Shown: in pieces, positions 4,692-37,922 of the stretch
Numbering within the stretch: the stretch's first letter is position 1
How the letters are laid out: each line of letters begins with the position of its first letter
DNA from: Winogradskyella sp. PC-19
GTDB taxonomy: Bacteria > Bacteroidota > Bacteroidia > Flavobacteriales > Flavobacteriaceae
Assembly (NCBI RefSeq): GCF_002163855.1
Contig: NZ_CP019332.1
Coordinates: 595,213 to 659,212, forward strand
Direction of reading: 5' to 3'
Length of the DNA stretch: 64,000 bases
Translations under genes and position numbers: made by a program
The notes under the pieces: model-generated
What the model was told of the DNA's origin: nothing
Database searches by the model: none
The model's input: the letters and a program-made list of their open reading frames with translations, nothing else

Positions 4692-5642
4692 ATGAAAGTA
4701 TTAGCAAACGACGGTGTTTCACAAAGCGGAATCGATGCTTTAGAAACTGCAGGTTTTGAAGTATCTACAACTACCGTTGCACAAGAGCAATTAGAAAACT
4801 ACATCAACGATAAAGAGATTAGTGTACTTTTAGTTAGAAGTGCAACAACAGTTCGTAAAAATATAATTGACAACTGCCCTAGCCTAAAAATTATCGGTCG
4901 TGGTGGCGTTGGTATGGATAATATTGATGTTGATTATGCACGTAGTAAAGGATTGCATGTCATTAATACGCCTGCTGCATCTTCACATTCCGTTGCAGAA
5001 TTGGTATTTGGACATTTTTATGGATTAGCCCGTTTTTTACATAACTCTAATCGTGATATGCCATTAGAAGGCGATTCTAACTTCAAAAAATTAAAAAAGG
5101 CATACGCCAAAGGTACTGAACTTAAAGGGAAAACTTTAGGTGTTTTGGGCTTTGGACGTATCGGACAAGCTACAGCGAAAGTTGCTATTGGTGCAGGTAT
5201 GAAAGTCGTTGCATTTGACCCATTTATGGAAGCAGCTGATTTAGAACTTGATTTTTTTGATGGTCAGAAAGTGAATTTTAATATCAAAACAATTTCAAAA
5301 GAAGATGTTTTAAAACAAGCTGACTTTTTAACATTACACGTTCCAGCACAAAAGGACTATGTGATTGACGAAGCAGAATTCAAACAAATGAAAGATGGTG
5401 TTATCATAGCAAACGCTGCTCGTGGTGGTGTAGTCAATGAAGTTGCTTTAGTCAAAGCGATTGAAAGCGGAAAAGTAGCACGTGCTGCATTAGATGTTTT
5501 TGAAAAAGAGCCACAACCAGAAATGGGATTATTAATGAATCCTGCTTTATCCTTAACTCCACATACTGGTGCTGCTACTAATGAAGCGCAGGATAGAATC
5601 GGCACAGAGTTAGCCACACAAATTATAAGCATTTTAAAGTAA
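4692..5642 (+). CDS. serA: D-3-phosphoglycerate dehydrogenase (short form)
   Basis: Oxidises 3-phosphoglycerate to 3-phosphohydroxypyruvate with NAD, the first committed step to serine. The 316-residue protein has the D-isomer 2-hydroxyacid dehydrogenase layout: substrate domain, NAD-binding GFGRIG (153-158), ARGGVVNE with the catalytic arginine, and TPHTGAAT with the catalytic histidine near the end. It lacks the C-terminal ACT domain used for serine feedback in longer forms, so allosteric control by serine is not expected from this subunit. It lies directly behind serC, which supports the assignment over other hydroxyacid dehydrogenases. A terminator follows at 5671. Confidence 0.94.
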   Translation: MKVLANDGVSQSGIDALETAGFEVSTTTVAQEQLENYINDKEISVLLVRSATTVRKNIIDNCPSLKIIGRGGVGMDNIDVDYARSKGLHVINTPAASSHSVAELVFGHFYGLARFLHNSNRDMPLEGDSNFKKLKKAYAKGTELKGKTLGVLGFGRIGQATAKVAIGAGMKVVAFDPFMEAADLELDFFDGQKVNFNIKTISKEDVLKQADFLTLHVPAQKDYVIDEAEFKQMKDGVIIANAARGGVVNEVALVKAIESGKVARAALDVFEKEPQPEMGLLMNPALSLTPHTGAATNEAQDRIGTELATQIISILK

Positions 5643-26507: not shown

Positions 26508-28205
26508 TTAATTTCCCAAAGACTTAAGAGAATCCAACTTACGTTGAAGTATCTCTATCTCTTTAGATTTATCATTAATTTCAGGAATAATACTTAACGA
26601 ATCTATAGCTTGCTGAATATCTCTGTCTTCTTGTGGTTCTTTCTCATTAAAATAATACCCAATACCTTCACTAGAGCGCCATGCTTCGTTTAGTTGACTG
26701 TACACCATTTCGTCCCAAGTACTTGGATGTTTTACATCTATCCAAATAACATCTCTGTATTCACTGTCAATAACCACTAAATCTGGAGTTGCCGATCCAT
26801 CAAACTGTTCAGCATTAGTGTCACTAATTGAAGATATCGTTCCTAAAAAGAACATACGTTTACGACCTGCAATTTCTTTTATATATGGCCTAAACTCGAC
26901 TGGTGTACTTGCTTTCCAATCGTACTCTTTACGAGATTCCTTAACCTTTAATGGCATCGCCGAAACACCAGCATAGCCTTGCTTTTTACTTGCATGGTCG
27001 TAATAAAATAATTTATCAGAGCCATCTGCCGGAATAAAAACACTGTAACTTAAGCTTGTACGTTCTACTCCAATTGGCTCTAAGCCAAACCAATGGTATA
27101 AACCACTGTAAGCATTTGTATTGCTATCCACAAAATCAAAATCTGTAACATATGGTTGCTGATTTTGGTCTTTTGGCATATCTGGTATCTTTACAGCTGT
27201 TTCCATATTCCATGGTAATGGATCACTAAAACCTCCAAGGAATTTTAAAGATTCAGCTTGTAGTTGCGATACTTTTTCAGACAATGTGTTTTGCTTATTT
27301 AAAAATGGATAGTCCTTAATACTCTCTGGACCAACGAATGTGCCTTTACCGATAGTAATACGCTCTATATAATCATTAAAATCATGTTCACCATTATCTA
27401 CAATCATTACACCACCAAATGTAGGATACGGAAAGAAAAAACCTTTCCATTTAATTAAACTCACCACTTGTACCCAATCACCGTTATCATTCTTCATATA
27501 AAAGGTATCACTTGGTTCGTAATTAAATAACATCCAAGGATTAAACCTTTGAACTACTGCATTATAAGTGTTTCTACTGAACTTTAAAGTTTCGCCTATT
27601 GAAAACGTAACAGGAATTCTATTTTCATTAGAGAAACGTGGGAATGGCGTTGTACTACTTACCGAAAATACTTCCTCAGTATTATCGCTAATTCGTTGCA
27701 TTATGTATTTCTCTGAAGGCTGTATTGCCATTGTCCATTTATTTTCATCATCTACTCTTACTAAGTGTGGTAATGAAACATCTTTTGTTTCTCCTACACT
27801 TTCGTTAGCCATTGAAAATATATTACGTAATGGTTGAATACGTTCGTTTTGTGTTAATGGCAATTCATGGATTTCAACTTTATTCAAGTTGTTGAATACG
27901 TTATAGGTCTTCATATAATCGTACATCCCATAATGCCAACCAAATATATATAATACACCAAAAAAGAGAATGAGTAAACCTAGGATTCCTAAACGCCCAC
28001 CTGTACTCGCTGTTTTACGAAATTTACGCAATCCTAAAAACAATAGGATAAGACAAACTACGATAACAAAAAGGTATTTTCTGAAGAATAACAGTGCTGG
28101 TTGGTAGTCGTCTCGTAAAACAAATAATAGAATAAGCAATACTAAACTTAGTAATACAGTAATTATTCTTTGCTTTCGTCCTTTTTTCCAGTAAGATTTT
28201 ATCAT
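26508..28205 (-). CDS. Large membrane-anchored protein with three N-terminal spans (565 aa)
   Basis: Three membrane spans (about 14-30, 44-59 and 71-90) are followed by about 450 residues of soluble, mostly beta-rich sequence and a final short coiled coil (EIEILQRKLDSLKSL). With a basic first loop, the large domain would face the periplasm. Segments such as FRPYIKEIAGRKRMFFLGTIS and PDLVVIDSEYRDVIWIDVKHP look like structured strands rather than disorder. I know of no function for this family. It is 11 bases after the small membrane protein gene and 2 bases before the next, so it lies in the middle of a tight operon. Confidence 0.6.
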   Translation of the reverse strand: MIKSYWKKGRKQRIITVLLSLVLLILLFVLRDDYQPALLFFRKYLFVIVVCLILLFLGLRKFRKTASTGGRLGILGLLILFFGVLYIFGWHYGMYDYMKTYNVFNNLNKVEIHELPLTQNERIQPLRNIFSMANESVGETKDVSLPHLVRVDDENKWTMAIQPSEKYIMQRISDNTEEVFSVSSTTPFPRFSNENRIPVTFSIGETLKFSRNTYNAVVQRFNPWMLFNYEPSDTFYMKNDNGDWVQVVSLIKWKGFFFPYPTFGGVMIVDNGEHDFNDYIERITIGKGTFVGPESIKDYPFLNKQNTLSEKVSQLQAESLKFLGGFSDPLPWNMETAVKIPDMPKDQNQQPYVTDFDFVDSNTNAYSGLYHWFGLEPIGVERTSLSYSVFIPADGSDKLFYYDHASKKQGYAGVSAMPLKVKESRKEYDWKASTPVEFRPYIKEIAGRKRMFFLGTISSISDTNAEQFDGSATPDLVVIDSEYRDVIWIDVKHPSTWDEMVYSQLNEAWRSSEGIGYYFNEKEPQEDRDIQQAIDSLSIIPEINDKSKEIEILQRKLDSLKSLGN

Positions 28206-28216
28206 AATAAGTAAAA

Positions 28217-28765
28217 TTACATTAAGCCTTTATCTTTCAATCGCTCACGTGCAGATTTCTCTTTGGCTTTAAAATCGTTCTTTGGCTCAGCTTCTATTTC
28301 TTTTTTTGCCACTTCTACAACTTTAGCATCTTTAGTTTTTAAGTCTTCGATAAAATCTTTCCCCTTTTCTACAGCGTCACCAACTGTATCACTTATAGAA
28401 TCACTTTTTTCTTCAATAACCTCAGAAGATTTTATGACAAAACTCGCTAAGTATGTTCCAAGTAGTGTTCCTACTGCAAATGAAGCAAAAGCTGAAATAC
28501 CGTTATAACTTGAAAATACAGCTAATGGCGTTAAAAATTCAACAATTAAGGCAGCAATTAAAACTAAACTTACTACAAAAATTATACGGGGTAATATACC
28601 TTGTTTGTAAACAAAGCCTTTTTGGTCATCAGGAGACATCTGTAGTTCTTTGCTATTTACAATTTTATTTAATGTTCGATATAAGCCATTTCCATTAGAT
28701 TCTCTCCAATAAAGAAAAATCCCAAAAAGGATGGCTGAAATAAATATTACGAGTTCTAGTCCCAT
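28217..28765 (-). CDS. Three-span membrane protein with charged cytoplasmic tail (182 aa)
   Basis: Hydrophobic segments at about 1-16, 54-76 and 83-108 are followed by a highly charged, predicted helical tail (residues 112-182) rich in Lys and Glu that includes a SISDTVGDAVEKGKDFIEDL stretch. The product should sit in the inner membrane with the tail in the cytoplasm. No named family. It is the first gene of the minus-strand unit, and a -7-like box lies about 55 bases upstream. It is divergent from the secreted protease gene. Confidence 0.6.
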   Translation of the reverse strand: MGLELVIFISAILFGIFLYWRESNGNGLYRTLNKIVNSKELQMSPDDQKGFVYKQGILPRIIFVVSLVLIAALIVEFLTPLAVFSSYNGISAFASFAVGTLLGTYLASFVIKSSEVIEEKSDSISDTVGDAVEKGKDFIEDLKTKDAKVVEVAKKEIEAEPKNDFKAKEKSARERLKDKGLM

Positions 28766-28890: not shown

Positions 28891-31701
28891 ATGAAAAAAC
28901 ATCTACTTTTTCTAGTACTTTTTACTGGTTTATTTGCCTATTCACAAGAAATATCTGCACCATTAAAAGTTGGAGATGAAATTGAAGTTAACTTTACCTC
29001 TAGCTTAGATTATAGCAATAATGACTCTGGAATCGTATATTCTAAAGAATTTAGGTCAACAGGTTCTGGGTATATAAAGTTATATTTTGAAAATTTTGAC
29101 TTAAACACGGGTGACTTTCTTAAAATATATGGAGCTGTATCAGGAGAAGAAATTATATACACTGGCTCTGGTAAAGTGATCAACAGCAACCAAACCTTAG
29201 ATAAATTTTGGTCAAAAACTATTTGGGAAGACCATATTATTGTTGAGTTACATAGTCAAAATGGTAATGGTAATCATTATGGTTTTGATATTACAAAAGT
29301 TGCTTATGGTTATCCTATTGATAAAATTTCTGGTGCTTTTGAAATCAGTTCTCAGCAATTAGAAACTGTTTGTAGTGGTGATGAAAGAGAACAAGCTGCT
29401 TGTTATGATGGCACTGAAATTGGTCGTAAATCTAATGCCATATGTAGACTACTCATCGGAGGTGCCAGTCTTTGCACAGGTTGGTTAATCGGAACTGAAG
29501 GACATATAATGACAAATAATCATTGTATAGGTGATGCTGCTAGTGCTGCAAATACTGAATTTTTATTCAACTTTCGTAATAGTGATTGTTCAGGCCTAAA
29601 TTCAGATGTATCAGATTTGGTAGCATCTTCATCAACTTTTATACAAACAAATAATGCTCTTGATTTTACACTTGTTCAGTTACCTGTTAACCCAACAAAT
29701 ACATACGGTTATCTTAGTTTAGCTTCAACTCCTCCAGCAGTTGGTGAACGTATCTATCATCCTCAACATCCAGGTGGTAGACGAAACGAAATTGCTGTTT
29801 TTACTGATACAAATCCAGGTCCTAATGGATACACTGTTGTAACAAATGCTGGTGATGGTGGAGCAAGAGTAGAATACTTTCATGATACTGAAGGAGGAAG
29901 TTCTGGCTCTCCTGTATTAAGATATAGTGATCATTTGGTGATTGGGCTTCATAATACTGGTGGTTGCCCTAATGGTGCAGCAGGTAGATCTGATGAGATA
30001 ATTAATGCTCTTGGAAGTATTATAACTAATATAGACGGTGCTATTGATGATCCTAACCCAGATTCTCCTAGAATTAGTTTTAGCACTATTCCAAGTGATA
30101 GCTCAGAAGGTTCAGATTGTACTTTTCAAGAAATTATTTTTGACCTTAGGATAGCTTTACCTCCATCTGAAAATGCAGATGTAACTATAAACACTTCTGG
30201 TACAGCAACTGAAGGAACTGATTTTGAAATATTAAGCCCTAATCCAATTACTTTTTTAGCTGGCGAGGATGAAGACAAACAGATTACTCTGAGAATTTAT
30301 AATGATGCATATGTTGAAGGAAATGAGGATTTTACATTGAGTTTATCTCTAGATGCAAATGATGGAGATGCAAATTTAGATCAGAATAGTAGTTTTACGC
30401 ATACAATAATGGATGATGATTATGGACCAGAGATAGGCAGTGAAACATCGCTAATGACTGAGGATTTTGAGTCAGATTTATCAAATTGGGTAGTAACTGG
30501 AAATGGTACAAGTAACTTTCAGATTGGTAATGCTACTGATGCATCATCTGCAAATTGGAGTGCCAATGGAAATACAACTAACTTCATTTTTGTAAACGAC
30601 GATGCCTGTAATTGTGATATGAGCGAAGAGCGACTACGATATGCAAATAATATAGATTTATCTCAATTAAATAGTGCCTTTCTAAATTTTGATATAAAAT
30701 ATTTAGATTCCAACGATCAGTACGCATCTGATTTATATGTACAAACTTCAATAGACAATGGTGTTTCTTGGCAAAATGCGGGTAGTGAAATCCCAACATT
30801 TAATAATTGGGGAAATATGAGTGTAGACTTATCATCGGTAATAGGTCAGTCTAATGTACTTGTATCATTTTTATATAATGATTTATCAAATTGGTCTTAT
30901 GCTTTAGCACTTGACAACATATCCTTGATTGGTCTAGGTGAAGCACAAATACAAACGACAATTAATTCTGGCGCAAGTAACACACAATCTTTAATTAACG
31001 GTTTAGGGACAATGTATGCATACGATTCGTTATCAGGTAATATTATGGCAAATTTCACAAACAATGCTAATAATAACTTTGGTTGTACAGGGATATCTGT
31101 GACAAGAGAAGGTACTAATGGTGTGAGTCATAATGGTTCTACTGGTGTAGATTTAGCAATGGAGAAGCAGTTTACAATCTCATCTACTGAGGAAAATGTA
31201 AATGGTAATATAAATGTTACATTCTACTTTACTGAAGCAGAAATAGCTGGCTGGGAAAATGCAGTTAGTGCAGCAGGTGGATCTAGTACAAGGTCTGATT
31301 TATTTATGGAGAGAAATTTAAGAACAGGAACTCGGGAGATAAGTTCTGTTACTTTAGGCACATATGATAATGGAGTAACGCTTACCGGAAATTTTGCTGA
31401 GATTGGTGGTAAATATACTTTTGCGCCTAATAAAGTTCTAAGTAATTCAGAAAATGACTTAGTGAATTTTACAGTTTATCCAAACCCTACTCGTGATTAT
31501 ATTAATATTCAATCAAAAGTAAATTTTAACAAGGTTGAATTATATAGTATTACTGGAAAAAAGATAAATACAATTAGCAACACTGATAATTTGCGTTCAA
31601 CGCAAATAGATATGACTAATTTAGATATTGGGATTTACTTTATAAAAATTCAAAATAGTGATACTAATCTTACATCTGTTATTAAAATAATAAAGAATTA
31701 A
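28891..31701 (+). CDS. Secreted trypsin-like serine protease with T9SS sorting domain
   Basis: A 936-residue secreted protease. In order: signal peptide (1-18), a CUB-like beta domain (about 22-140), a trypsin-fold peptidase (about 175-375) with triad His211 (TNNHCIG), Asp258 (NALDFTLVQ) and Ser338 (GGSSGSP), a Calx-beta-like domain (about 390-510), a MAM/anchor-J-like beta domain (about 520-690), and a C-terminal type IX sorting domain (about 860-936) opening with VYPNPTRDYINI. The GSSGSP form of the serine loop is that of glutamyl endopeptidase and lysyl endopeptidase relatives. It is a single + strand gene between two minus-strand operons and ends at a strong shared terminator. Confidence 0.92.
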   Translation: MKKHLLFLVLFTGLFAYSQEISAPLKVGDEIEVNFTSSLDYSNNDSGIVYSKEFRSTGSGYIKLYFENFDLNTGDFLKIYGAVSGEEIIYTGSGKVINSNQTLDKFWSKTIWEDHIIVELHSQNGNGNHYGFDITKVAYGYPIDKISGAFEISSQQLETVCSGDEREQAACYDGTEIGRKSNAICRLLIGGASLCTGWLIGTEGHIMTNNHCIGDAASAANTEFLFNFRNSDCSGLNSDVSDLVASSSTFIQTNNALDFTLVQLPVNPTNTYGYLSLASTPPAVGERIYHPQHPGGRRNEIAVFTDTNPGPNGYTVVTNAGDGGARVEYFHDTEGGSSGSPVLRYSDHLVIGLHNTGGCPNGAAGRSDEIINALGSIITNIDGAIDDPNPDSPRISFSTIPSDSSEGSDCTFQEIIFDLRIALPPSENADVTINTSGTATEGTDFEILSPNPITFLAGEDEDKQITLRIYNDAYVEGNEDFTLSLSLDANDGDANLDQNSSFTHTIMDDDYGPEIGSETSLMTEDFESDLSNWVVTGNGTSNFQIGNATDASSANWSANGNTTNFIFVNDDACNCDMSEERLRYANNIDLSQLNSAFLNFDIKYLDSNDQYASDLYVQTSIDNGVSWQNAGSEIPTFNNWGNMSVDLSSVIGQSNVLVSFLYNDLSNWSYALALDNISLIGLGEAQIQTTINSGASNTQSLINGLGTMYAYDSLSGNIMANFTNNANNNFGCTGISVTREGTNGVSHNGSTGVDLAMEKQFTISSTEENVNGNINVTFYFTEAEIAGWENAVSAAGGSSTRSDLFMERNLRTGTREISSVTLGTYDNGVTLTGNFAEIGGKYTFAPNKVLSNSENDLVNFTVYPNPTRDYINIQSKVNFNKVELYSITGKKINTISNTDNLRSTQIDMTNLDIGIYFIKIQNSDTNLTSVIKIIKN

Positions 31702-31720: not shown

Positions 31721-31750
31721 AAAAAGCCTCATGAGTACATGAGGCTTTTT
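31721..31750. terminator. Strong bidirectional terminator
   Basis: A perfect 13-bp stem (AAAAAGCCTCATG pairing with CATGAGGCTTTTT) around a 4-base loop AGTA. It ends the protease gene on one strand and the five-gene AAA+ operon on the other; the latter's stop codon lies one base beyond the stem. Confidence 0.9.
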
Positions 31751-31751
31751 T

Positions 31752-32987
31752 TTATATATTTTTAGTAATAGTCATAATCACCCAATCCCTGAACGAGTCA
31801 TCCCATGTATCATAACTCTTATAAAACTGGTCTTTGTTATACCAATATAAAAACAATACATCTTTTGGGGCTACATTAATCAAAAGCCTCCAGATTAAAT
31901 CTTGATGCTGTACAGATAATGAAGAATGTGGTTTATGTAGTGCAAAATACATTTGTTCGTCTACCATATCTTCTAATTTAAAAGCGTTACTACGCTCTAA
32001 TTTTTCAAGATATAACTCAACACTCATAACTTGCTTACGAGATTTAATATCAATCTTATTGAGATAACTCTTAAACAACATAGAGTCTGAAAGTATGTCA
32101 TTAATTGGATGTTGTGTCTCAGTCAATAGTTGTGCAAATTCGAATTTCTTAATTCTATCATATTTACTTGTATTGACAATATCTTCGAGATTTACCTCGA
32201 TAATAATGTGATCACGAAGTTTCTCGATTAATTCAGGTTGAGAAATATGATAAATTAAAACATCATGTATTGTGTCTTTTATGGCTTCTTTATAAGATTC
32301 CATATCCTCAAAAACAACAATTGTTTTTATAAAATCTCTTAAAACATAAACACCATTGAATGCCTTAGTATAAAAGGAACCAGACTTAAATTTTAGATTT
32401 GGTAATTCTAAGTCTCTACCTCTTAAATCTCCATATTGCTTTGCTGATTCTAGAATTTGATTTTGTAATTCTTCGTTTATAAAATTATGATTGGTTTTAA
32501 ACTTTTCAATCAACTGAAATTGCTCGCGCTGTTGATGGTATAGATTATCCATTAGATGAAAATTAATGGTAATCTCATCATACTTAAGTACATCTAAAGG
32601 TTCATAAAACGTATCAATTTTTTGGTCAAAATCTATAATTATAGCAGAATCCCTAGTAATGTCATTAATCTTTTTCGAATAACTCTTGAAAATTAATTGC
32701 ATCATATCTCTGTCAAAAGAATGATACGGCGAATACACTGGTTTTCTATTCTGTAATGGTGAAATAATAATACCATGAGGGTTTGAAGCACCGTTACATA
32801 AATAATTTTCGTCTTTTTTTTCTTCTGCAACTTCTGGACTCCAACCTACACCATCAATTGAAAACTTTTTGAGCTTGGTAGCTGTAAAACCCAACTTAAC
32901 TAAACATTTGTTATAACGTTCGACGAGTTTTCCACTTACTGGAATAAGTTCACTTCTGTATAAATTTGCTTGTTTTAGTTTTTGCAT
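31752..32987 (-). CDS. DUF6638-like protein
   Basis: A 411-residue soluble protein, last gene of the five-gene operon and 13 bases after its neighbour. It has a short N-terminal region with VERYNKCLVKLGF, then an extended helical region, and ends with an aromatic-rich part (LFLYWYNKDQFYKSYDTWDDSFRDW). The length and sequence style fit the Bacteroidota family DUF6638, whose function is unknown; I make this match from memory, so it is tentative. No catalytic motif or membrane span is visible. Its place beside the AAA+ ATPase suggests it is a component or substrate adaptor of that machine. Confidence 0.62.
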   Translation of the reverse strand: MQKLKQANLYRSELIPVSGKLVERYNKCLVKLGFTATKLKKFSIDGVGWSPEVAEEKKDENYLCNGASNPHGIIISPLQNRKPVYSPYHSFDRDMMQLIFKSYSKKINDITRDSAIIIDFDQKIDTFYEPLDVLKYDEITINFHLMDNLYHQQREQFQLIEKFKTNHNFINEELQNQILESAKQYGDLRGRDLELPNLKFKSGSFYTKAFNGVYVLRDFIKTIVVFEDMESYKEAIKDTIHDVLIYHISQPELIEKLRDHIIIEVNLEDIVNTSKYDRIKKFEFAQLLTETQHPINDILSDSMLFKSYLNKIDIKSRKQVMSVELYLEKLERSNAFKLEDMVDEQMYFALHKPHSSLSVQHQDLIWRLLINVAPKDVLFLYWYNKDQFYKSYDTWDDSFRDWVIMTITKNI

Positions 32988-33000
32988 AAATTGCTATTCT

Positions 33001-33417
33001 TCAATTAAACCAACCGATAAGCTCAAAAATTCCTATTAATGTGAAAAAAATTATAATGACAAGAAAAATAACAAAAATGATTCCTTTAATTTTTTCTTTT
33101 AGAGCTGATGGCTTTTCACGGCTTTTTAGAAATTCATATCTATTATCATATACAGGGATGACATTTTCTAAAGCACCATATAAATAGCACCAATTGCCTT
33201 TATTAATTGGAATAGATTCATTATTATTTAATTTTCGATCCTCAAATAATTTAACTGCTTTTAGCAATTGACGGGCAAAAGGTATTAATCCATCTTCATT
33301 TGCTTGTATATCAGGAAAATCATTCCCTGTTATCCCAAAATAAGCTTCGTTTTGATGAGCACTTTCACCTAAAATTTTTATTATTTGATCTAATTTTATG
33401 TTATCAATCCTTGACAT
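33001..33417 (-). CDS. Tail-anchored small protein (138 aa)
   Basis: The first 105 residues are soluble and helical. Residues 110-134 are one strongly hydrophobic span (GIIFVIFLVIIIFFTLIGIF) at the C-terminus, so it looks like a tail-anchored protein with its main domain in the cytoplasm. No named family. It lies between the AAA+ ATPase (23 bases) and the DUF6638-like gene (13 bases), and could tether the ATPase complex to the membrane. That role is inferred from topology and position. Confidence 0.6.
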   Translation of the reverse strand: MSRIDNIKLDQIIKILGESAHQNEAYFGITGNDFPDIQANEDGLIPFARQLLKAVKLFEDRKLNNNESIPINKGNWCYLYGALENVIPVYDNRYEFLKSREKPSALKEKIKGIIFVIFLVIIIFFTLIGIFELIGWFN

Positions 33418-33440
33418 CGCAATTTCATAATTATCTGTTA

Positions 33441-35402
33441 TTATTTTCCTTCAAACTGATTTCTGGCTTCAGTTTCAATGTTTAACTGATTAATTCTAGC
33501 ATCAACTTTACGTTTAAAGTCAGTATCTGCTATAGTTGCAACGTTATCTAGATAACGAATCACTTCTTGACGTCTAATATCAGAGAAATTTAAACCTTTC
33601 ATATTCGCCTTCATTAATTCTTGTAGCATATTGAATTTGGTATCGTAGTCTTTTTTAAAATACTTATCAGGATTTTCGAACCAATCTTGCTCCAAGTCAA
33701 AATCCGTTAGGCGCAATGATATTGCAGATTGTATGTTTCTAACATCACGTGATGAAAAGAATGGAAATATTTTCTGAATCTCTTTGTATAATGTTGCATA
33801 GAACATGTGATCTGTCGCTTGGTGTAATTTTTCAACTTTATCAAACGTATCGTGAACTCTCTCTTCTGTTGGTTTTTCAACAGCATTCAAAATTTCACCC
33901 ATACTTTTTGCCAAGCCTTGGTCTGCCAAATACTGATAACCCTCAGGATTATTCATATTTATAAATTCTGGCATCGTATCCTGAAGCTTCCTCCACCACA
34001 AATGGTCTTGATCTAAAAAATCATGCTCTGTACGTGCGCCATCTATTTTGAAACGACCTTGCACACGAGAAATCACAGCTTTATCTAGCATTTCGGGTAA
34101 GTTTGTAAATAAACCTACCGAACTATTACCATAATTTACGGCATAAGCACCTTCTGTATATCTTAAAAACACACCAATAACTTCTTTGACACCAGCAGAA
34201 ACACCTTGAGCTGTTCTTTCCTGCAAGTTATTTTCAGCATCATCAATTGGTGCAAAAATAAGTTTTGTTGGGTCTTGTAATGGTTTCATCCATTCTACCA
34301 TTTTTTCAGCAGAACCGCCTTGAAATGTGCTTATAAGCGTATCAGGCATTGGATGAAATAGAAATGGAATATCCAAATTATCGCAATGTTCCTTTAAACG
34401 TGTGGCAATTGCAGCAATTAGCATACTTTTTCCAGTTCCTGGAATACCGTAACCCATAAAAACAGGCATGAAACCACCTAACTCTTGAAAAGGATTTTTC
34501 TTAGCTTCAAAATCATAACTCAACATACGTTCAGTCAAACGACGTGCAAAATGCTTGGCGTCACGATTACCAACAATTTGCTCAAATTGAATTTTATTGA
34601 ATTCTACACTTTTTGCTGTGCCTTCAAAAGTGTTACTCCAACCATCTATTGCAAAGTCACTATTCTCTAATTTATATGCTCTATCAACTATAGTCCCTGT
34701 ATACTCTAGAGTACTTTTTCTAAGTTGTATTTCTGAAATTAATGCTTCAAAATAAACAACTGTAAAGTCAATTACATCCTTATCGGATTTAATAATTTCT
34801 GGGTGGCCAAGGTACTTATCATAATAGAATAAGCTACAAGAAATTCCTTTTAAAGGTGTTAATAATGATACTTCTGGAATACCAGCAAACTTCTGTTTCA
34901 TGACACTTAAGTCGTCAGAAGCTGTAGGTTTTAAATCATGTAATATTTTATAAGATAATGCGAATAACATAAACGCTGTTGCTGTATGCATTTTGCTTTC
35001 GTATTCACGCTTTCCATTACTATCTAGTGCAGATTTGTTTTCAACTAAAGAAGACAAACCTGAGGCGTCGTAATAGCTTTCTCGTATCCATAAGCCCAAG
35101 CCAATACCTTCTTGTACTGCATAAAGCGTACTATTAAGATGAACAGGAAGTGCTACAGACTCAGGTAATAAACGTTTTTTTAGTTCTAAAATAGTTTTAG
35201 AAACTGAAGTAACTTCTGCACTGCCACCATTTCCTTTTGCACGAGATAAGTACAAAAGAATGGATTCGTCTTTAGCGTCTTTATCTTTATTACGTGCACG
35301 TTCGCCTTGCTCCCATTGGATACTTTTAATATAAGATGTAGCTTCATCACGAAGCATATCAAGCTCGGTTTGTTTTATAGGGAAAGTTGAATTGTGTTCC
35401 AT
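33441..35402 (-). CDS. AAA+ ATPase, core of an uncharacterised operon
   Basis: A 653-residue cytoplasmic ATPase. The N-terminal 270 residues are helical and unfamiliar. The AAA+ module spans about 275-470: Walker A GIPGTGKS (319-326), a pore-loop-like FQGGSAEKMVEW (360-371), Walker B LIFAPIDDAE (381-390), sensor Asn434 in GLFTN, and arginine-finger candidates Arg446 and Arg450 in ISRVQGRF. A helical C-terminus follows to residue 653. The two-asparagine-free Walker B (PIDDAE instead of hhhhDE) is unusual but keeps the Asp/Glu pair. It is the third of five genes, with short gaps. Members of this class remodel or disassemble protein assemblies; the target here is unknown. Confidence 0.75.
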   Translation of the reverse strand: MEHNSTFPIKQTELDMLRDEATSYIKSIQWEQGERARNKDKDAKDESILLYLSRAKGNGGSAEVTSVSKTILELKKRLLPESVALPVHLNSTLYAVQEGIGLGLWIRESYYDASGLSSLVENKSALDSNGKREYESKMHTATAFMLFALSYKILHDLKPTASDDLSVMKQKFAGIPEVSLLTPLKGISCSLFYYDKYLGHPEIIKSDKDVIDFTVVYFEALISEIQLRKSTLEYTGTIVDRAYKLENSDFAIDGWSNTFEGTAKSVEFNKIQFEQIVGNRDAKHFARRLTERMLSYDFEAKKNPFQELGGFMPVFMGYGIPGTGKSMLIAAIATRLKEHCDNLDIPFLFHPMPDTLISTFQGGSAEKMVEWMKPLQDPTKLIFAPIDDAENNLQERTAQGVSAGVKEVIGVFLRYTEGAYAVNYGNSSVGLFTNLPEMLDKAVISRVQGRFKIDGARTEHDFLDQDHLWWRKLQDTMPEFINMNNPEGYQYLADQGLAKSMGEILNAVEKPTEERVHDTFDKVEKLHQATDHMFYATLYKEIQKIFPFFSSRDVRNIQSAISLRLTDFDLEQDWFENPDKYFKKDYDTKFNMLQELMKANMKGLNFSDIRRQEVIRYLDNVATIADTDFKRKVDARINQLNIETEARNQFEGK

Positions 35403-35445
35403 TTATTTTGCTTTTGGCTTTTAGTTATTGGCTGTTAGCTATAGG
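35403..35445 (-). repeat. Degenerate short tandem-like intergenic sequence
   Basis: The stretch reads, on the minus strand, as variants of AGCC/AACAGCC/AATAACT/AAAAGCC in tandem and covers the stop codon of the upstream gene. Similar loose repeats appear in intergenic regions of other Flavobacteria. The match is by eye and weak. Confidence 0.3.
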
Positions 35446-36473
35446 TCCGAAACTTGGATTGGTGGTTTTGCCAATTTGTCAATCACTTCGGGTGTTTTGT
35501 TATATAGTAGTTGAATGATACGATGTGGTGCTAAAACATATTTCTGTTTTATAACATCGCTCCAACGTTGAAATGTTTGCTTACTAAAAAAGCTACCTTC
35601 TTTAAATTCTGATGTTGATTTAATTTCATCAATTTTTAATGAAAACGCATAACTCTCTAGTGGAATTTCTTTTTTTGAAATCGCATCTAAAATAGTATGC
35701 GTAATATCATTTTCGTCTTTTGCAAAGACATTATGCAAAGGACCTAAATCTATACGTTTTACATGCTTTGGCAGCAATTCTGGTAATTTTCGGTCAATTG
35801 CATAAGCCATAGCATCTAAATTCATCTTTCGATCTGCCGATTGTTTTATCGCTTGATAAATCTCTTCCTTATCTTTAATAGGATCTCTACCGTCATAGTT
35901 GAAATACATAAAGCATACAAAAGGTCTGTTATGAGAGACATCATAAAAACTCCAACTTGTCATGTACTCTCCTATTTTAGGCTTTGGTGATTTTAAAATC
36001 TTGCCTTGTACAAAACGATTAAAAATAAATTGCTGTTTTACATTGGTATAATACACAATTGATGCAGCTTGAAATAAACGTGATTTTTTAATGGGTTCTT
36101 TCTTTCGCATTAAGGTATCTAAGAACTCATCTTGTAAAACATTAATATCTGTAAGTCTATTAAGATATTCTTCACGCAATGCTAAGTCATTAAACAAATA
36201 CCTAAACTCCAAATAATTTGGAAACCCAGAATCTGTTAAATCAATTTTCATATTATCCTCATCGTCATACATGTATTTTACACGCATAGCTTCGATTGAA
36301 TACAACAATAAATCGCAGTATTGTTTAAAAAACACCAGTTCTTGCTCAGCGCACAACTGCTGCTGTTGCATTTTTACAATCAATTCTTTCACTGTAAAAT
36401 CTACCATACGATGGTAGAATTCATATTGCTGCTTTGAATCTAATTGTGCTGAATCTAGTGGGGTTACAATCAT
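35439..36473 (-). CDS. Uncharacterised 344-aa operon protein
   Basis: I recognise no family. The soluble 344-residue protein is mainly helical, with a N-terminal half (1-150) rich in Glu, Gln and Leu and a middle segment (KPKIGEYMTSWSFYDVSHNRPFVCFMYFNYDGRDPI, about 175-210) that looks like a beta-hairpin core. No signal peptide, membrane span or catalytic motif is visible. It is the second gene of the five-gene operon, between the coiled-coil protein and the AAA+ ATPase. An adaptor or structural role in that complex fits its place, but only by position. Confidence 0.6.
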   Translation of the reverse strand: MIVTPLDSAQLDSKQQYEFYHRMVDFTVKELIVKMQQQQLCAEQELVFFKQYCDLLLYSIEAMRVKYMYDDEDNMKIDLTDSGFPNYLEFRYLFNDLALREEYLNRLTDINVLQDEFLDTLMRKKEPIKKSRLFQAASIVYYTNVKQQFIFNRFVQGKILKSPKPKIGEYMTSWSFYDVSHNRPFVCFMYFNYDGRDPIKDKEEIYQAIKQSADRKMNLDAMAYAIDRKLPELLPKHVKRIDLGPLHNVFAKDENDITHTILDAISKKEIPLESYAFSLKIDEIKSTSEFKEGSFFSKQTFQRWSDVIKQKYVLAPHRIIQLLYNKTPEVIDKLAKPPIQVSDL

Positions 36474-36569
36474 TTTTTACTATTGAGTAGTCAGTAAATA
36501 GTAAGCAGTCTATAATATGAACAAATAATCATACTGTAAACTGCCAACTAATTACTGTGTACTTATTTA
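36474..36569. repeat. Intergenic stretch of loose CAGT/ACTG-type repeats
   Basis: This gap holds several degenerate copies of a motif close to CAGTnnAnAGT on the plus strand (TCAGTAAATAGTAAGCAGTC, then ACTGTAAACTGCCAACTAAT and ACTGTGTAC). Such loose repeats are common between genes in Flavobacteria and have no assigned role. Confidence 0.35.
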
Positions 36570-37922
36570 TTATCCTAATAAATCGTCTTCTGTTTCTGGT
36601 TTTGGCCCTGGGTTACTATCACCAGAGTTATCATCTTCAGGATTATTTGGTACGGTATTGTCAGAGTTATAATACTCATCAAAAATTTCTTTCATATCAA
36701 TACCATAGCGGTCAGCGAAGTTTTTCTGAATTTCAGAATCTTTATTTCTAATTTCTTTTAAAGCTTCAGCGTAACTACCGTAAACACCTTGCATCACTTT
36801 TTCATGAACTGGAATGTTATCCATCATCTCTTGACGTGCTCTTGCACTAGCTGTATGCATTGCTGCTAAAGTTTCGCCAATGTGCTCATCAGTTTTGACA
36901 CCTAAATGTTCTAAGATTGCAGCAAATTCTTGATCTGTACGCGCTTTTAAAGCCACGATATAGCCATCATAATACTTTAACCTTTCATCTGTGTCACTTT
37001 TTAATTTAGCACGGTGAGTTTGCAAATTACTTCTTAAAGAGGTTAATACTTTAATAGTTAAATTATGTTTGTGTACAAAGCTATCTTTTGACGCAGCAAG
37101 AGTCGTATACGCATTTTTAAGGCCTTCTAACTCTTCTACCGATTGTTCTAGTTTTGTTACTTTAGATAATGCTTCGGAATATTCTGTAGACTGCTTATCT
37201 GCAACATCTGTTAAAGCTTGTCTGGCTTGTTTGAGTAATGCATACTCTGCTTCTAACTTACCTTCAACCTCTGCTTTCTTTTCTAAAGCTTTAGTATGGT
37301 TTTTACTAGCTTCGACAATAGCATCTTGTAATTTATCTTCTACTTCTTTAATTTCGACTTCTCTGTCTTTTAAACGCTTAACTGCTGCCTGACTTTTAAA
37401 AGATAACTCATTTAATAAAGTTTGAACATCAGCAGTTTCGATGCGTTCCTGAAACATAGCTTTTGCTTTATTATCAGCAGCATCACGCTCTTTTTGTGCA
37501 GATACTAATTCGCTTTCGGCATCTTTGATTTTTCCTTTGCGTCCCCAAAGATTATTCCACCATGTGTCTGGCTTATTTTTAGCATCTTCTAATTCTACTT
37601 TCGCACGTTCTAAACGTTTGATAGCGTCATCAATGATTTTTTGTTCGTTTTTATTTAATGCAGAAAAACCTTCAAACATAATACCAACTTCATCTTGGTA
37701 ATCTGTCAAGTCTTTAATAGCATCAAGAAGGGTTGACCTATCTTTTTCTGCCATATCAACGACATTATCTAAGGTTGCATTCAAGATTTTTTGACGACTT
37801 TCTGGATCATCTTCTTGTGCAAGTTTAGATTTCATTTGGTCAATGGCTTTGCCCCAATTGACATCAACTTTTTCAGCTTTTTCTTGTGAATTGGTTTCTA
37901 GTAAGTCAAAATCATCAGACAT
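36570..37922 (-). CDS. Coiled-coil protein, first gene of the AAA+ operon
   Basis: A 450-residue cytoplasmic protein with predicted helix over most of its length and coiled coils at about 90-160 and 165-280, rich in Lys, Glu and Ala. A conserved-looking loop with tryptophans (KPDTWWNNLWGRKG) interrupts the first coil. The tail (about 415-450) is disordered and acidic (NNPEDDNSGDSNPGPKPETEDD). Database entries for such proteins are sometimes labelled microtubule-binding, a coiled-coil artefact. It leads the operon and could be the filament or scaffold on which the AAA+ ATPase acts, comparable in outline to ESCRT-III/Vps4 or PspA systems; that comparison is inference only. Confidence 0.65.
   Translation of the reverse strand: MSDDFDLLETNSQEKAEKVDVNWGKAIDQMKSKLAQEDDPESRQKILNATLDNVVDMAEKDRSTLLDAIKDLTDYQDEVGIMFEGFSALNKNEQKIIDDAIKRLERAKVELEDAKNKPDTWWNNLWGRKGKIKDAESELVSAQKERDAADNKAKAMFQERIETADVQTLLNELSFKSQAAVKRLKDREVEIKEVEDKLQDAIVEASKNHTKALEKKAEVEGKLEAEYALLKQARQALTDVADKQSTEYSEALSKVTKLEQSVEELEGLKNAYTTLAASKDSFVHKHNLTIKVLTSLRSNLQTHRAKLKSDTDERLKYYDGYIVALKARTDQEFAAILEHLGVKTDEHIGETLAAMHTASARARQEMMDNIPVHEKVMQGVYGSYAEALKEIRNKDSEIQKNFADRYGIDMKEIFDEYYNSDNTVPNNPEDDNSGDSNPGPKPETEDDLLG

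Follow-up and report, generated by a model that had tools for sequence, protein, structure and literature searches.

What does a classical AAA ATPase do when its gene is embedded among genes for a coiled-coil protein, two soluble proteins and several predicted membrane proteins? This question is raised by a locus of Winogradskyella sp. PC-19 (Flavobacteriaceae), which lies in a stretch of 64,000 nucleotides (contig NZ_CP019332.1, positions 595,213 to 659,212) that was analysed as a whole and is called the window hereafter. A first-pass annotation of this DNA had described a 'self-contained', 'five-gene' operon ending at one strong terminator and coding for an ATP-driven envelope or membrane machine. 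All five open reading frames are present on the minus strand at the positions and with the sizes reported, and the gaps between them are 96 (CC–Y), 36 (Y–AAA), 23 (AAA–TM138) and 13 bases (TM138–DUF6638). However, the operon is neither self-contained nor made of five core genes, as two conserved genes for membrane proteins (M182 and M565) lie outside it, and TM138 does not belong to the core. The genes concerned are as follows.

36570–37922, minus strand: CC, coiled-coil protein of 450 residues, first gene of the unit (open reading frame list; 81/81 loci)
35439–36473, minus strand: Y, 344 residues, helical N-terminal part and beta-sheet C-terminal part (open reading frame list; AlphaFold2 model)
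33441–35402, minus strand: AAA, classical AAA ATPase of 653 residues whose N-terminal region of ~265 residues belongs to no known family (Pfam AAA, 7.7e-9)
33001–33417, minus strand: TM138, accessory gene, 138 residues with a C-terminal hydrophobic helix (2/83 loci, L039 and L064)
31752–32987, minus strand: DUF6638 protein, 411 residues (PF20343, 3.4e-30; detected in 83/83 loci)
28217–28765, minus strand: M182, membrane protein with three hydrophobic segments (by hydropathy) and a soluble C-terminal tail ending in KDKGLM (77/81 loci)
26508–28205, minus strand: M565, membrane protein with three hydrophobic segments in its N-terminal part and a large soluble domain that is very conserved (78/81 loci)

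The ATPase is of a known kind. In the literature searched, including the accessible parts of PMC11237479, no such ATPase was met together with CC, Y, DUF6638 and membrane partners that are exchanged between lineages.

A conserved six-gene unit and its distribution

Relatives were collected by a search seeded with the ATPase, which yielded 300 of them. The best 80 loci, i.e. the nearest ones, were kept and all are flavobacterial according to their record titles or MAG labels; together with one Vibrio and two rhizobial loci they form a set of 83, and together with the window a set of 81. Using the window proteins as queries, we found CC, Y, AAA and DUF6638 in identical order and on the same strand in 81/83 loci, so that these four genes of the operon initially described stand as a unit, but TM138 does not. 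In the two rhizobial loci, tblastn with the window CC finds no coiled-coil protein, and a 362-residue protein occupies the CC position. Clustering of the open reading frames of the 81-locus set added M182 (77 loci) and M565 (78 loci), both on the same strand as the other genes, and the full order CC–Y–AAA–DUF6638–M182–M565 is found on one strand in 77 of the 81 loci. Three of the exceptions (L007, L018 and L025) are short and stop a little past the AAA or the DUF6638 gene, and M182 was absent from the clustering in the fourth (L055).

The distances between the genes also indicate where the window is peculiar. DUF6638 and M182 are typically separated by 48 bases (median; 150 bases or fewer in 54/77 loci), and M182 and M565 by 95 bases (median). 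In the window, the former reaches 2986 bases because a convergent protease gene sits between DUF6638 and M182. Two further features are thus relevant here.

28891–31701, plus strand: convergent gene for a secreted trypsin-like protease, not a part of the unit (Trypsin_2, Por_Secre_tail)
31721–31750, no strand assigned: terminator-like hairpin between the convergent genes (13 pairs, 5 of them G-C)

The hairpin corresponds to the terminator first proposed; its stem is real, but the conserved unit extends past it, to position 26508. As the protease cluster is limited to the window and two other loci (L001 and L003) among the 81, the operon end seen in the window is a local break in a larger unit.

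The unit is strongly conserved within flavobacteria. Median identities to the window copies are 87% for AAA, 86% for CC, 79% for M565, 71% for Y, 70% for DUF6638 and 65% for M182, and the ATPases of the best 80 of the 300 relatives are 85–97% identical. An ABC-F-type neighbour is encoded in 73/81 loci, and the unit is mostly found at one chromosomal place.

We surveyed AAA, CC, Y, DUF6638 and M565 in 149 Flavobacteriaceae genomes, some of which are possibly incomplete; the counts are uncorrected for kinship. For AAA, at least 476 bits were required; the next best matches, of ~26 bits, fall on the common AAA core, as do those found in 143/149 genomes at an E-value of 0.001. Strong AAA, CC and Y matches occur in the same 48 genomes. 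DUF6638 and M565 are each present in 47, which correspond to the AAA-bearing set minus one genome (G438), and all five genes are absent from the other 101. In G438, the AAA gene is an open frame of 327 residues that ends near position 5400 of its contig; this contig-end case is the sole departure from the all-or-none pattern. In another genome (G383), the unit is split over three places of one contig (CC–Y–AAA at 1.83 Mb, DUF6638 at 2.58 Mb and M565 at 2.68 Mb), and all five genes are retained. Across the phylum, strong AAA matches and DUF6638 matches coincide in the same four of 296 genomes. Gene order and presence or absence thus establish that these genes belong together. Roughly one in three of the Flavobacteriaceae genomes sampled has the whole unit and the others lack it, which, together with the high identity of the ATPases, points to a steady cellular job.

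Beyond this family, the proteobacterial distribution was assessed on plasmids, i.e. on 72,556 plasmid records. AAA relatives with 28–31% identity (24–26% over the whole alignment) are encoded on ten of them, four from Vibrio, four from Sinorhizobium, one from Shinella and one from Rhizobium. In Sinorhizobium meliloti pSymB the order is tdk–CC–Y–AAA–endonuclease-domain gene–IS4-type transposase–DUF6638–DUF2333–fhs. DUF2333 (PF10095) is encoded on nine of the ten records, the exception being Rhizobium leguminosarum pRlX5. On the four Vibrio plasmids, it is found far from the other genes of the unit (~375 kb from AAA in NZ_CP015514.1). DUF2333 proteins are the likely membrane partners in rhizobia, Vibrio and the phage described below. 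On pRlX5, a gene downstream of the unit (L136, 10401–12437) resembles, by eye, that of a housekeeping-type sigma factor.

Another R. leguminosarum plasmid, pSK03, has tdk–CC–DUF2333–...–fhs at the position matching that of the S. meliloti unit. Identities to the S. meliloti proteins are 32% for CC, 74% for Tdk and 61% for DUF2333. Y, AAA and DUF6638 gave no match at an E-value of 1 in this 15-kb stretch, and no AAA match was found plasmid-wide. We read this arrangement as a natural cut that would separate a half made of CC and a membrane anchor from a half made of Y, AAA and DUF6638, and it makes the two halves separately testable.

The unit was also found in a viral contig of 359 kb (IMGVR_UViG_3300035698_035310), with DUF2333, CC, Y, AAA and DUF6638 in a row. 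Ten of its proteins, picked by eye from five of six fetched stretches spread over the contig, were scanned. Two topoisomerase II subunits, an RIIA lysis inhibitor, a PhoH-like protein, a helicase and a translation elongation factor could be named, and the other four had no function or no match. By our reading, the contig most likely belongs to a T4-like huge phage, because RIIA and a split topoisomerase are present; the one terminase model tried gave no match. The viral collection, of 2.9 million contigs, was scanned with a few short conserved patterns, and further phages of this type may exist in it. In 50,697 deposited phage records, the window AAA as a query found no member of the unit, and the phage AAA found six records with weak matches to the AAA core.

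Two observations on the gene content of this contig may be added. Adjacent genes for proteins with FliG-middle and FliM domains are located ~2.3 kb upstream of DUF2333 (L134, 113–1020); parts of the flagellar switch are unusual in a phage. In addition to the elongation factor named above, the contig appears, by eye, to encode two tRNA synthetase-like proteins, to which PHROGs assigns no function (positions of the three genes: L145, 1618–3735; L148, 7236–8537 and 14236–15507).

Features of the ATPase, the coiled-coil protein and their partners

The AAA domain scores above the Pfam cut-off of 21.2 bits in all proteins scanned (window 36.5, Vibrio 50.1, Sinorhizobium 41.8 and phage 45.9 bits). 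Profile comparisons with PDB sequences matched it to CDC48/VCP-like ATPases, Rpt, Pch2, Vps4, katanin and FtsH, which makes it a classical AAA ATPase without a close solved relative. Motifs were scored by pattern in 86 family members. They are located as follows, with those of CC.

34425–34448, minus strand: Walker A, GIPGTGKS, AAA residues 319–326 (G.PGTGK[ST] in 86/86 members)
34311–34334, minus strand: pore loop 1, ISTFQGGS, AAA residues 357–364, with the aromatic residue F360 (pattern in 86/86 members; alignment with a VCP-like ATPase)
34239–34247, minus strand: Walker B, IDD, AAA residues 386–388 (Asp-Asp in 85/86 members by pattern)
37899–37916, minus strand: N-terminal acidic-dileucine motif DDFDLL, CC residues 3–8 (80/81 flavobacterial CC proteins)
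37530–37568, minus strand: tryptophan-rich basic loop DTWWNNLWGRKGK, CC residues 119–131 (WNNLWG in 69/81 CC proteins)
36573–36587, minus strand: C-terminal acidic-dileucine motif DDLLG, closing a variable acidic tail (78/81 CC proteins)

The Walker A motif is exactly where it had been annotated. The Walker B context PIDDAE, initially noted as unusual, is indeed so, and it is a property of the entire family: the remaining member, presumably that of the phage, has LFDDVD at this site by eye, so that Asp-Asp replaces the canonical Asp-Glu with its catalytic glutamate throughout. We kept the classical AAA assignment despite this difference because the remaining features are present, namely Walker A, the sensor-1 asparagine (85/86 members), two arginines of the second region of homology (85/86) and the aromatic pore loop IS.[FY]QG[GK][ST] (86/86). 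An aromatic pore loop conserved to this degree speaks for an ATPase that pulls on a polypeptide, with F360 presumably the threading residue, as in AAA unfoldases and as placed by alignment to a VCP-like ATPase.

CC is conserved about as strongly as the ATPase in flavobacteria. Its N-terminal motif was scored as [DE][DE].[DE]LL in residues 1–40 of the protein predicted from the longest open reading frame. At the other end, [DE]DLL is found within the last eight residues of 78/81 CC proteins, compared with 6 of the 1094 other open reading frames of the same loci, and is mostly followed by G or S. This motif terminates a variable, acidic tail, the positional conservation of which is 0.62 vs 0.80–1.00 in the other 30-residue blocks. 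The tryptophan-rich loop is a possible hairpin tip or membrane contact. In the five non-flavobacterial CC proteins that we aligned, the insertion that forms this loop is absent and a short hydrophobic-basic stretch is found instead (e.g. IVGIFFKKK). The 362-residue S. meliloti protein encoded at the CC position aligns with CC at 20% identity. CC proteins range from 359 to 450 residues.

None of CC, Y and TM138 reaches the cut-off of a Pfam family. The Y alignment comprises all 35 non-redundant rows with the window and phage proteins. Structure modelling covered Y and DUF6638 as single chains; the AlphaFold2 model of Y, with a pLDDT of 85.9 and a pTM of 0.83, has no clear fold match, the T-fold considered for its C-terminal part included. 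The last protein of the initial operon was correctly called DUF6638-like: it is a true member of PF20343, with 105.7 bits for a cut-off of 27, and the Vibrio (199.1 bits), Sinorhizobium (256 bits) and phage proteins (335.6 bits) score higher still. This family is uncharacterised, as is DUF2333. The DUF6638 alignment includes 35 of 44 non-redundant rows with the window and phage proteins, and that of M565 19 of 29 non-redundant rows with the window protein. M182 has a further conserved terminal tail, KDKGLM or KDKGLL, in 68/77 copies (window positions 28220–28237). All in all, four of the six core proteins fall outside the curated families and none of the six has an assigned function. No nuclease, protease/peptidase or toxin domain is present among the Pfam matches of the core genes.

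Possible action of the unit and alternative explanations

We infer that the unit remodels the envelope or a polymer. Our tentative reading, to which we would grant somewhat less than an even chance, is that a threading AAA ring, to which Y and DUF6638 would serve as adaptors, pulls apart or resets a membrane-tethered scaffold of CC. It builds on the gene order, the all-or-none presence of five of the six genes, the AAA motifs, the predicted membrane segments and the terminal motifs of CC, and further on the retention of all five scattered genes in G383, the split seen in pSK03 and the presence of DUF2333 on nine of the ten AAA-bearing plasmids. CC would be the scaffold, an elongated coiled coil, and a dedicated membrane partner (M182/M565 in flavobacteria, DUF2333 in proteobacteria and the phage) would hold it at the inner membrane. 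The AAA protein would assemble as a ring with aromatic pore loops, and in the flavobacterial version it might be recruited by the acidic-dileucine ends of CC. Y and DUF6638 could act as adaptor or docking subunits. The ATPase would then thread or pull either CC itself or whatever is bound to it, and the assembly at the membrane would thereby be dismantled or reset. If this is correct, a membrane or polymer remodeller has been built from parts without visible relation to ESCRT-III or PspA.

Several points weigh against this reading. The role of membrane anchor is assigned to DUF2333 and M565 by position only, since the two are not detectably related: neither M565 nor M182 has a DUF2333 match in Pfam scans up to an E-value of 1, and a profile comparison of M565 with DUF2333, the latter represented by three sequences, gave a probability of 0.5%. 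On four plasmid records (two from Skermanella, one from Rhodobacteraceae and one from Photobacterium), DUF2333 is found without a detected CC or AAA, and it can therefore have other work, at least on the plasmids covered. The terminal acidic-dileucine motifs are absent from the five aligned non-flavobacterial CC proteins; recruitment must therefore differ there, which counts against a general role of these motifs. CC might also act as a mere tether, with the ATPase pulling another molecule. Finally, the family-wide change from Glu to Asp in Walker B may slow hydrolysis.

The strongest rival, in our view unlikely, is extraction or quality control of membrane proteins, without CC as the substrate. 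The ATPase would pull clients from the inner membrane, Y and DUF6638 would be client adaptors, and CC would serve as a spacer to the membrane partners. Msp1, Bcs1 and FtsH are the systems to compare, here without a protease. Such a role would agree with the conservation of the aromatic pore loop and of the AAA motifs, the strong conservation of M565, the lack of a peptidase domain among the core-gene matches and the absence of Y–AAA–DUF6638 as a block from pSK03. However, CC is about as conserved as AAA and keeps its end motifs beyond a variable linker, which is more than a spacer needs.

The comparison with ESCRT systems leads to an extension of the scaffold reading. The Vps4/ESCRT-III and archaeal CdvBC systems share with the unit a classical AAA ATPase with an aromatic pore loop, a coiled-coil partner with a motif that ends a variable tail and, if our reading of the unit is right, an action on membranes. 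ESCRT-III recruits Vps4 through C-terminal motifs that follow a variable tail. In contrast to Vps4/ESCRT-III, the unit has no MIT or Snf7 match, the N-terminal region of its ATPase belongs to no known family, and it has two further conserved soluble subunits, a DD Walker B motif and dedicated membrane partners. Thus, the unit may work like ESCRT, by analogy, and ESCRT membership is unsupported. One can conceive of an ESCRT-like machine of independent origin, in which a non-homologous coiled-coil scaffold on lineage-specific anchors would be dismantled by a classical AAA ATPase via end motifs; it would have been spread across phyla by megaplasmids and be carried by a huge phage to reshape the host envelope or membrane-linked structures of the phage itself. 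Taken as a whole, this scenario is speculative and rather unlikely.

A role in anti-phage defence or another conflict is improbable. With the PADLOC models, AAA weakly resembles IetA (1.6e-5, 22.5 bits) and CC shows weak similarity to JetC, JetA and LmuB (best 1.8e-4, 17.5 bits), and carriage by a huge phage and by megaplasmids would fit such a role. Nevertheless, the scores are low and the regions matched are the AAA core and the coiled coil, and the curated IetA model gives AAA 14.7 bits for a cut-off of 510. The IetS protein is a protease; the unit resembles IetAS in the AAA core and has no protease partner among its domain matches, nor any nuclease or toxin domain. The low divergence of the flavobacterial ATPases (best 80 loci) and the mostly single chromosomal place of the unit likewise argue against defence.

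True membership of the ESCRT-III/Vps4 or PspA families, to which the first-pass annotation had likened the operon, is very unlikely. What stands of that suggestion is an ATPase of the classical group (with Vps4, katanin and CDC48) next to predicted membrane proteins; the kinship does not. The motif that closes the variable CC tail, a layout shared with ESCRT-III, speaks for membership, as do the profile matches to Vps4 and CDC48. Pfam scans up to an E-value of 10, in which the HMMER filters drop most matches above ~0.1, gave no PspA_IM30 or Snf7 match for CC and no MIT match for the window, Vibrio and Sinorhizobium AAA proteins. Comparison of the CC profile with PDB sequences gave no match of the PspA or ESCRT-III type. 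Against PspA itself, with five sequences from the eight loci (those that yielded an open reading frame passing the filter), the profile comparison gave a probability of 0.7–0.8%, compared with 0.2% for a reversed control, and CC is longer than the PspA open reading frames of 232–251 residues. PspA/Vipp1 systems, some of which have AAA partners, combine a coiled-coil protein, an AAA ATPase and membrane proteins in one operon, as the unit does (PMC11237479, in its accessible parts). In the same parts of that work, the ATPases beside PspA/Vipp1 are a Vps4-like protein, a protein with two AAA domains or a fusion to a coiled coil and a beta-propeller, and the ATPase of the unit is not among them. 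PspA was found above the cut-off in 8/80 Flavobacteriaceae genomes and in 0/31 unit carriers among these (P 0.016, without correction for kinship), a pattern that would fit replacement and is a hint at most.

Even less probable is a relationship of CC to TelA (PF05816), which would link the unit to toxic-anion or tellurite stress. TelA is an all-helical protein of similar length (361–389 residues in four Bacteroidota loci), and its helix arrangement looks similar by eye. With thin profiles, a global-mode comparison gave 1.5–3.7% (reversed control 0.3%), but the local mode gave 0.2–0.5% (reversed control 0.4%), and Pfam scans up to an E-value of 10 gave no TelA match. Inspection by eye of stretches of 1.5–4 kb around eight TelA genes, in which no search was made, revealed no AAA, Y or DUF6638 gene.

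Lastly, TM138 and several other small genes come and go within the block, as they would in a chance operon of unrelated genes, an explanation that we reject for the core in view of the gene order, the co-occurrence and the scattered yet retained parts in G383.

Inserted and neighbouring genes

TM138 is one of the variable insert genes. It had been annotated as tail-anchored, which agrees with hydropathy: the protein has a single strong hydrophobic segment, at residues 113–131, close to its C terminus. In the AAA–DUF6638 interval, 61/80 flavobacterial loci have a gene of one cluster encoding a protein of ~196 residues, which is lacking in the window. The one member scanned is a NUDIX hydrolase (41.5 bits), and the name of the cluster is based on this protein. 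In the accessible parts of PMC5256989, a type VI secretion locus of P. fluorescens has DUF2333 and NUDIX genes as neighbours. Other inserts in the same interval code for small membrane proteins, a membrane protein of 442 residues (five loci), a protein of 120 residues (16 loci) and others. Between Y and AAA, two Flavivirga loci (L076 and L079) contain a gene for a protein of 726 residues that looks, by eye, like a secreted peptidase.

In the window, the hairpin at 31721–31750 may serve both convergent genes, because it is located between them; four terminator-like hairpins were found in the region, compared with 2.6 expected from shuffled sequence. The protease encoded on its other side carries, in addition to the trypsin-like domain, a Calx-beta domain and a type IX sorting domain.

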